Both the position numbers and the translations under genes were made by a program. The notes under the pieces are model-generated. The model was not told where the DNA came from and did not search any database. It was given only the letters and a program-made list of their open reading frames with translations. From assembly GCA_026713285.1 (NCBI GenBank), contig JAPOOT010000249.1, positions 1 to 38,246 on the forward strand: 38,246 bases of DNA, in the 5' to 3' direction. This document shows positions 11,777 to 32,462 of the stretch, one piece after another; position 1 is the first letter of the stretch; every line of letters starts with the position of its first letter. Origin of the DNA: Gemmatimonadota bacterium. GTDB taxonomy: Bacteria > JAAXHH01.

Positions 11777-11809
11777 CCCATATCTGGTCTGTTCAGGTCT
11801 GTTTCGTAT

Positions 11810-11883
11810 GACCCCAACGGGATTTGAACCCGTGTTGCCGCCGTGAAAGGGCGGTGTCCTTGGCCAGGCTAGACGATGGGGTC
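11810..11883 (-). tRNA. tRNA-Glu (anticodon TTC)
   Basis: Reverse complement GACCCCATCGTCTAGCCTGGCCAAGGACACCGCCCTTTCACGGCGGCAACACGGGTTCAAATCCCGTTGGGGTC. Acceptor GACCCCA/TGGGGTC, anticodon stem CCGCC-CTTTCAC-GGCGG, T-loop GGTTCAAATC. Confidence 0.95.
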
Positions 11884-11941: not shown

Positions 11942-13183
11942 TTACCCCTCGTAACCCATGTCCTTCCATATGCGACGGGCGTATGGGATATGTTCCGGAG
12001 CCGGGTCGCGACGGCCGAGTATGCTGGGAGGCGGCTGTCCCGGTCCGGCATGTCCGGGCCAGGGCGACCAGTGGTCGTTCTCCCAGGATTTCCGGTCGTC
12101 TTCTTCCCTGAAATCGGGCACCTCGAAGGGGCGCCCGTCTTCCAGCGCGCTTTTCCAGGCCAGGATGCCCACCGACGACATGGCCACGCCGCGGTAGACG
12201 TCCAGGAAGGGCTGTTCGCCCGAACGGATGGCCCGGGCAAAGTGGAAACTGGTCCAGAAGTCGCCGCCCCCGTGCCCCGCCTCGCGGGCGAGATCGCCGT
12301 GTTCGGGCCAGTCCGGCCGGTATACCCGTTCCGCTTTCTGGCCGGGTTCCAGGTGCCACGGCTCATGCCACACCCGCACCTCTCCCGGTCCGAAGTATCC
12401 GGGTCCCCGCGTGATCTCCATGGCGCCCCGTTCGCCGTGCACGCGGTACCAGTTGCTGTGGCCCGGCATACTGAGTCCGAAGATCCGGAACACCGCGCCG
12501 TTGTCCATGCGGCAGAGGATGACAGACCCAGGGTCTCCTCTCCTGAGCGTGAGGGTGCGCTCGGGCCGCGCGATGGCCAGGGCGTTCACGCCAACCGGCC
12601 GCGTATCGGTGATGCATACCAGCGGAGCCAGGGCGTGGGTGCAGTAATAGGTGGAGGGAATCCACGCACGCCAGTGGTCGAATCCCGGTGACAGGCGGAG
12701 GCTGTCGTCCCGGGCCATGGGGTGGTTGTACTCCCCCTCGGCATAGGTTACCTCGCCGATCTCCCCCTCGCCGTACAACCGGTGCATCTCCTGATTGAAG
12801 ACCGTGTACGGATAGTTCTCGGCCAACATGTAAATCCGGCCGGTCTCCTCCACGGTCCGGCACAGGGCCACCCCCTCGGCCAGGGTGGCGTTGGAGGCCG
12901 TCTCGCTCATGACGTGCCGCCCCGCCCGCAGGGCCTTGATGGCGAACGGCGCGTGTTCGTGGAAGTAGTTGGCCAGGACGACGGCGTCCATGTCGTGGGC
13001 GAGGAATGCGTCGTAATCGGTGTACGCGGCGACGGAGAGTTCCCCGGCCAACTGCAGCAGCCGCTCCTCCCAGGTGTCGCACAGCGCCACGAGCTTCATG
13101 CCCACGGCGCTGGACGCGGTCTGCGCGAAACTCTTCCCGCGGCCCACGCCTACTACGCCCACACGGATCGGCTGATCGTTCAT
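11942..13183 (-). CDS. Gfo/Idh/MocA family oxidoreductase
   Basis: 413 aa; IRVGVVGVGRGKSFAQTA, DMDAVVLANYFHEHAPFAIKALRAGRHVMSETASNATLAEG. Confidence 0.9.
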   Translation of the reverse strand: MNDQPIRVGVVGVGRGKSFAQTASSAVGMKLVALCDTWEERLLQLAGELSVAAYTDYDAFLAHDMDAVVLANYFHEHAPFAIKALRAGRHVMSETASNATLAEGVALCRTVEETGRIYMLAENYPYTVFNQEMHRLYGEGEIGEVTYAEGEYNHPMARDDSLRLSPGFDHWRAWIPSTYYCTHALAPLVCITDTRPVGVNALAIARPERTLTLRRGDPGSVILCRMDNGAVFRIFGLSMPGHSNWYRVHGERGAMEITRGPGYFGPGEVRVWHEPWHLEPGQKAERVYRPDWPEHGDLAREAGHGGGDFWTSFHFARAIRSGEQPFLDVYRGVAMSSVGILAWKSALEDGRPFEVPDFREEDDRKSWENDHWSPWPGHAGPGQPPPSILGRRDPAPEHIPYARRIWKDMGYEG

Positions 13184-13297
13184 GGTTCGCCTTCGCTCAG
13201 GATGCGCCTTCGTTCATGGTTCATCTTTGTTCATGGTTCATCTTTGTTCATGGTGCGCCGTCGTTCATGGTGCGCCGTCGTTCAGGACGCTTCCCTC
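13179..13297 (-). repeat. Seven 17-bp tandem repeats filling the gap between HAD stop and Gfo/Idh start
   Basis: Units (+ strand): ttcatggttcgccttcg, ctcaggatgcgccttcg, ttcatggttcatctttg x2, ttcatggtgcgccgtcg x2, ttcaggacgcttccctc. The array contains the Gfo/Idh ATG and reaches the HAD stop. Confidence 0.93.
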
Positions 13298-14000
13298 ATG
13301 ACAGGCCAATCAGTCCGGGGACATCCGTCAATGTGTTGATGGTGGGCAGGCGATATCGCCCGTACTTGTCGTACCGATCGATGAGGAGGGCGTCCAGGCC
13401 GATGCGTTCTGCGGGCAGGATGTCCTCCTCCGGGTAATCCCCGATATACAGGATGCGGCCGATCGGGGTTTCCGCACGATCCAGGGCCAGGCGGAAGATC
13501 TCCTCGTCGGGCTTTTCACATCCGACTTCGGCGGAAACGACGAGGAAGGAGAAGTACCGGTCCAGGTCGAGCCGCTCCAGGACCAGCGCGAGGTGTTCCG
13601 ACCAGTTCGACAGCACCCCGAGGCGCATGCCGCGGGCCTTCAGCACTTCCAGCGTGGGCCGTACGTCCCCGTACACCTCCAGGTACCTGCCGTCCTGGAA
13701 CCGGTCGTAATACGCCTGCAGCCCCTGCGCCAGGTCACCCTCGACGCCCGCTCCGTTCAACACGTGGGCGTAGAGATCCAGAAAGTACCGGCGCGTCTGC
13801 TCCGGCGTGCTCATGCGTCCTTCGCGAAGCCGGAACCGCGGTTCCTCCATGGATTTCGAAAGCGCGGCCTTCACCTGGTTCAGCGTCACCTCGGTCCCGA
13901 GCTCCCCGGCCGCGACAACAAAGAACTCCTCGAAGAAATCCGGAGAATCCCGGCCGACGAGGGTACCCGCCGCATCAAAAATCACGGTATCGTAGAACAT
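13296..14000 (-). CDS. HAD family hydrolase (YjjG/FMN-phosphatase-like)
   Basis: 234 aa; YDTVIFDAAGTLVGRD, LGVLSNWSEHL, GCEKPDEEIFRLAL, ILYIGDYPEEDILPAERIGLDALLIDR. Confidence 0.9.
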   Translation of the reverse strand: MFYDTVIFDAAGTLVGRDSPDFFEEFFVVAAGELGTEVTLNQVKAALSKSMEEPRFRLREGRMSTPEQTRRYFLDLYAHVLNGAGVEGDLAQGLQAYYDRFQDGRYLEVYGDVRPTLEVLKARGMRLGVLSNWSEHLALVLERLDLDRYFSFLVVSAEVGCEKPDEEIFRLALDRAETPIGRILYIGDYPEEDILPAERIGLDALLIDRYDKYGRYRLPTINTLTDVPGLIGLS

Positions 14001-14030
14001 GGAGGATCCGTGCCTTCGCCGGCAAACCGG

Positions 14031-16679: not shown

Positions 16680-16754
16680 GGCAATGGCGCCACCGCACAA
16701 CCCAGGCAAGGGCGCCACCGTACAACCCAGGCAAGGGCGCCACCGTACAACCAC
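16680..16754 (+). repeat. Three tandem 25-bp repeats (ggcaagggcgccaccgtacaaccca) with degenerate copies continuing to about 16809
   Basis: Units 16680-16704, 16705-16729 and 16730-16754 are near identical. Degenerate continuations ggtagggccttcaccatataatccgtca and ggggcgtcaccggatgacca follow. Confidence 0.88.
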
Positions 16755-32274: not shown

Positions 32275-32316
32275 AAGTCCATACTCGATTGCACCAAAGT
32301 CCATACTCGATTGCAC
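32275..32316. repeat. Direct repeat, two 20-bp identical copies at 22-bp spacing, upstream of the peptidase-Omp85 gene
   Basis: aagtccatactcgattgcac at 32275-32294 and 32297-32316. Confidence 0.9.
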
Positions 32317-32462
32317 GAAAAACCGCACACAAAGTTTCGATTTTATGCACGCGACCGGTTCCCGCACCGTGCGGAACGGCAATGAGCGGGCGCCGGAAGC
32401 GTCCGCCGTCATATTCAGCTGTCCGTATTCAAAGGGTTGACAACCCGCTCGGAGGGGATCTT

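Follow-up and report, generated by a model that had tools for sequence, protein, structure and literature searches.

A tandem array of stop/start-overlapping units between a HAD-family hydrolase gene and a Gfo/Idh oxidoreductase gene, probably a slippage-copied translation-initiation module

The gap between a HAD-family hydrolase gene and the Gfo/Idh/MocA-family oxidoreductase gene that follows it is filled by a tandem array of short units, in which a stop codon and a start codon overlap at every link provided that CTG is accepted as a start. We consider this array to be, probably, a coupled translation-initiation module that slippage has duplicated in tandem to varying copy numbers, tolerated because its length is 2 mod 3; ribosomes could cross it by restarting stepwise. 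It lies in a 38,246-nucleotide stretch of DNA, analysed as a whole and here called the window, from the genome of a sponge-type bacterium placed in a Ca. Latescibacterota genus known from MAGs.

All features of the junction are on the minus strand. The HAD-family ORF (13296..14000; Pfam PF00702/PF13419) ends in a TGA (13298-13296) that shares bases with the ATG opening the chain. The origin of the chain is the HAD stop itself, a correction to an earlier sequence-only reading, and the first link is a 14-nt unit (ATGAGGGAAGCGTC, 13299-13286) whose TGA is the HAD stop and whose micro-ORF reads MREAS*. Six 17-nt units follow: CTGAACGACGGCGCACC, with a CTG start (LNDGAP*, 13285-13269); ATGAACGACGGCGCACC (MNDGAP*, 13268-13252); two consecutive copies of ATGAACAAAGATGAACC (MNKDEP*, 13251-13235 and 13234-13218); ATGAACGAAGGCGCATC (MNEGAS*, 13217-13201); and CTGAGCGAAGGCGAACC, again with a CTG start (LSEGEP*, 13200-13184). 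The Gfo/Idh ORF (11942..13183; PF01408; ATGAACGATCAG) then opens at an ATGA at 13183. The existence of a tandem array, claimed previously, is confirmed by the sequence and by TRF (13176-13284, period 17, 6.4 copies), and the peptides MNDGAP*, MNKDEP* (twice) and MNEGAS* are encoded as described; of the seven 17-bp units counted before, the 17-nt repeat stands, with the number amended to six full units plus one of 14 nt. Because all unit boundaries are NTGA and all unit lengths 2 mod 3, a start overlaps the prior stop at every link from the HAD stop onward. CTG stands at two of the seven unit starts, and the chain is therefore interrupted twice if ATG, GTG and TTG alone count; the break formerly placed in the second-to-last unit (CTG at 13200) is real but is not the sole one, the other falling at 13285.

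Shine-Dalgarno (SD) pairing is weak at the ATG units of this array (-1.1 to -2.1 kcal/mol). The unit at 13184-13200, which carries the GAAGG SD-like sequence of Gfo/Idh, is represented in congeners by a single orthologous unit, RTGAACGAGGACGAACC. Against shuffles of 200 kb of the window genome, the chains found in the array (three with ATG/GTG only, and seven with NTGA, counted from the HAD stop) were both beyond any shuffle; NTGA chains of four appeared about 0.3 times, and none was longer. The array of about 120 nt is within reach of ordinary reads, and copy number was taken from MAG assemblies. GC content is 62.5% in the window alone and 63.1% in the congener sample, and 57.6% in the 200-kb sample of the window genome (G000 contigs C1-C21, window included); this MAG, listed with 5.9% contamination, may contain foreign contigs. 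Gfo/Idh is immediately followed, on its own strand, by a tRNA-Glu gene (TTC anticodon, 11809-11883).

Eleven congeners share the HAD-Gfo gene order, with Gfo 90-93% identical and an ATGA start in all. All compared genomes are MAGs, one per species, with gene starts from a simple caller and tblastn alignment. The gap measures 30-115 nt across species and differs greatly in sequence, and it is assembled from comparable 14- or 17-nt pieces: NTGA, an optional 3 nt, a GGA-rich stretch and a spacer. Comparison of unit number between relatives, which the sequence-only reading had proposed, gave six 17-nt units in the window genome, two in G009 and one in most species; G002 and G006 each have two 14-nt units. 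Matches to the junction motif followed the same distribution (six in the window genome, two in G009, about one in other species) and fell at the HAD-Gfo junction only, and a search of the genus for a dispersed repeat family found none, with the exception of one two-mismatch match lacking an NTGA start in G005. An unbroken chain links the HAD stop with the start of Gfo in 8 of 12 species with CTG allowed and in 6 of 12 with ATG, GTG and TTG only. In the four species without one, the chain ends at TAG or TAA (G007, G011) or the HAD stop is TAA (G001, G009). A small NTG-started ORF closes on the Gfo ATGA in 12 of 12 species. The Gfo/Idh orthologue of another genus (G013:C9) is broken across two reading frames and contains an in-frame TGA; the SD region of this gene (ACGAGGACAAACCATGA) is similar to the unit but lacks an NTGA 17 nt upstream. 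The spacer between the 2-hydroxyacid dehydrogenase and HAD genes (14001-14030) varies strongly among congeners in length and sequence, with GGAT and the CC ahead of the ATG as the exceptions.

That such modules multiply with the overlap kept is seen most clearly at a different junction, between RecO and a PfkB kinase. It was found through a search for four RTGA at 17-nt spacing, which identified an array in G002 whose ends coincide with the RecO stop and the PfkB start. The RecO-PfkB gap is -4 in six species (G000, G001, G004, G006, G009, G011), -1 in G007, +13 in G005, G008 and G010, +30 in G003 and +47 in G002; the values -4, +13, +30 and +47 correspond to a canonical ATGA overlap that has received 0, 1, 2 or 3 inserts, each precisely 17 nt long. 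ATGA is kept at both ends of every unit (MRKRKP* and similar), with 8 of 8 unit starts retaining it in five species, and the start downstream of each unit has a good SD (-5.6 to -8.1 kcal/mol). The HAD-Gfo and RecO-PfkB units are unlike in sequence. The Gfo tree would allow either a single gain of the RecO-PfkB unit followed by loss in G006, or more than one gain. The termination-reinitiation geometry suggested earlier is thus conserved in kind, with full chains in two-thirds of the species at HAD-Gfo when CTG is counted and 0-3 units at RecO-PfkB, and is broken in the remaining third at HAD-Gfo.

Both junctions combine near-identical tandem units with copy numbers that differ between close relatives, as expected of a slippage-generated VNTR. 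Tandem duplications (11-31 nt, at least 80% identity) were present in 39 of 165 G005 spacers (400 kb) compared with 3.6 in shuffles, an excess of about tenfold, and in 7 coding segments of equal length; the genus therefore makes tandem repeats freely. The generic start context in the genus, with GGA about 8-10 nt upstream and CC just before the ATG, matches the body of the unit, which identifies the unit as a duplicated translation-initiation region. Replication slippage or unequal exchange is the most likely origin of the copies on this comparative evidence, and slippage duplication of the start region, offered previously as an alternative to a relay, is borne out by the copy-number differences between species, the common spacer duplications and the homologous single unit in most congeners. 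In the mechanism that we propose, one module would comprise an NTGA start on the previous stop, a short purine-rich SD-like stretch and a spacer with CC at its end. Replication slippage or unequal exchange would generate further copies, and each 17- or 14-nt copy, its length being 2 mod 3, would bring a fresh start codon onto the stop before it; a lengthening spacer would be tolerable because every copy keeps the stop/start overlap. A ribosome finishing HAD would then restart on successive six-codon micro-ORFs and lastly on Gfo/Idh, a stepwise passage that we infer from the geometry of the units.

The same array might be a neutral minisatellite, in which slippage expanded a spacer that includes the start region while Gfo/Idh uses its own SD with no relay; the ATGA phase would then be a by-product, since the copied segment contains ATGA. 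We regard this as quite possible, if not the expected outcome. Spacer duplications in G005 are not only common but have lags in all residue classes with no clear preference (17, 14 and 8 for 2, 0 and 1 mod 3). Among 384 genomes, 17-nt RTGA arrays occurred in 19, 16-nt arrays in 30 and 14-nt arrays in 48 (the last count inflated by 7-mers), so that the search of other genomes that had been suggested showed no preference for the coupling phase. NTGA chains were in no genome-wide excess over shuffles in 200 kb of the window genome. The last unit diverges about as much as Gfo/Idh 4-fold sites (0.20 versus 0.25 per column, P 0.18), and strong conservation of the micro-ORF start was not found by comparison with those sites (TGA columns P 0.08; whole unit P 0.18). 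On the other side, the RecO-PfkB inserts are all exact multiples of 17 with ATGA retained throughout, whereas other junctions are irregular in length, and complete HAD-Gfo chains (8/12) exceed the G005 background of 12 in 59 TGA-ended junctions of 20-130 nt. Shuffled HAD-Gfo gaps would give 2.6 complete chains (P 5e-5), or 5.8 with the last unit kept (P 0.04), although both P values take species as independent and are too small because species share ancestry; over testable junctions, both focal junctions included, complete chains were slightly above shuffles (35 versus 27). On these figures, and with divergence near the 4-fold rate, selection acting on the micro-ORFs is at most possible. That duplications at overlapping junctions survive only if 2 mod 3, through a translated micro-ORF relay keeping coupling over more than 100 nt, seems to us rather doubtful; if coupling is important to these pairs, phase may matter, since a 2 mod 3 duplication leaves an overlap at each step. 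In about 600 kb of aligned genome, only about six -4 junctions vary in length, of which three keep the chain, and some -4 junctions grew longer and lost it.

Copy number itself could be the selected trait if unit number set the Gfo/Idh:HAD ratio as a contingency-type switch. Copy number does vary between species at two junctions, but the units have diverged by substitution, so the array is not a fast-flipping, identical one; both HAD and Gfo/Idh belong to ordinary metabolic families, and many congeners have just 1-3 units. We therefore judge a selected switch very unlikely, and the copy-number-tunable device of the sequence-only reading finds no support in the comparison, given the chains broken in a third of species, the lack of enrichment elsewhere, arrays of non-coupling period that are equally common and unit conservation not above that of 4-fold sites; that copy number serves regulation as its dedicated function is not supported. 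The array might also act at the DNA or RNA level, as a series of operators or other binding sites, as a promoter or as a structured leader; intergenic tandem repeats can be protein sites. Searches of the array found no promoter- or terminator-like sites, no unusual RNA fold (z -0.62) and no Rfam match, a 17-bp period does not hold one DNA face, and homologous gaps preserve the start/SD layout and not a common repeat number, making such an element extremely improbable.

Among known systems, the stepwise module proposed here has close counterparts in the canonical 4-nt ATGA overlaps of translational coupling by termination-reinitiation and in the mycobacterial interspersed repetitive units (MIRUs). 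The same overlap occurs at each link, and the RecO-PfkB junction without units is exactly a canonical one; the difference is that here the overlap is repeated via micro-ORFs, bridging gaps of 30-115 nt. MIRU copies are tandem and variable in number, with units of tens of bp. In a MIRU, an intergenic repeat, the small ORF is tied to the adjoining one through a -4 nt overlap of the ATGA type, which is thought to allow the insert to occupy a start while expression hardly changes (PMC12548453). A repeat ORF is likewise tied to the flanking gene by a -4 overlap here, in all 12 species at Gfo and in five at RecO-PfkB. The units here, however, are 14-17 nt, unlike between junctions and without a dispersed family, and look locally duplicated rather than mobile; the array would thus work like MIRU yet is none, its units being far shorter, junction-specific and not dispersed. 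Minisatellites and VNTRs expanded by slippage likewise have a short spacer unit of variable copy number, a kind of repeat common in this genus, but the unit here includes an SD and a start codon and keeps the stop/start phase. The TAACTGA repeats of marine Beggiatoaceae are short direct repeats just upstream of start codons for which a role in translation has been proposed (PMC4679880), a likeness in position and candidate role; the 7-nt repeat differs in stopping all three frames and often replacing the SD, and no stop/start overlap chain is described in the passages considered.

Coupling requires overlap or a very short distance, and in Haloferax and E. coli reporters a spacing of about 20 nt nearly abolishes it (PMC10666635); by those data, gaps of 30-115 nt alone would be too long for coupling. 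Another study, cited in a review (PMC12548453), found little harm from spacing up to +25 nt. In E. coli, coupling was unchanged on depletion of ribosome recycling factor, which speaks against reinitiation being the principal mechanism of coupling in that species (PMC7538156). Should ribosomes really pass along the chain, it would show how the spacer of a coupled pair can grow while coupling is kept, and these junctions would offer natural constructs with 0, 1, 2, 3 and 7 steps on which to measure repeated termination-reinitiation, a process in dispute (PMC10666635 versus PMC7538156). If they do not, the array is still a clear case of slippage-copied start signals, and calls for caution when gene starts are annotated in genomes of this kind.

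Units of 16 nt restore the overlap at every second copy only. A junction in G001:C2 measures 33 nt through two such units, a pair (32 nt) that is in phase, where six species have a 1-nt gap. In G010 (C48:6883-6950), a 16-nt GTGA-unit array directly follows the stop of a carbon-nitrogen hydrolase gene and is absent from the congeners examined; this CN_hydrolase-His_Phos array was rejected as a third case, as the real downstream start is probably further on. Other tandem repeats in the window are a 25-nt unit repeated 2.9 times just after the M19 peptidase gene (16680-16752), a 23-nt unit present twice (2471-2516) and a 22-nt unit present twice (32275-32320).
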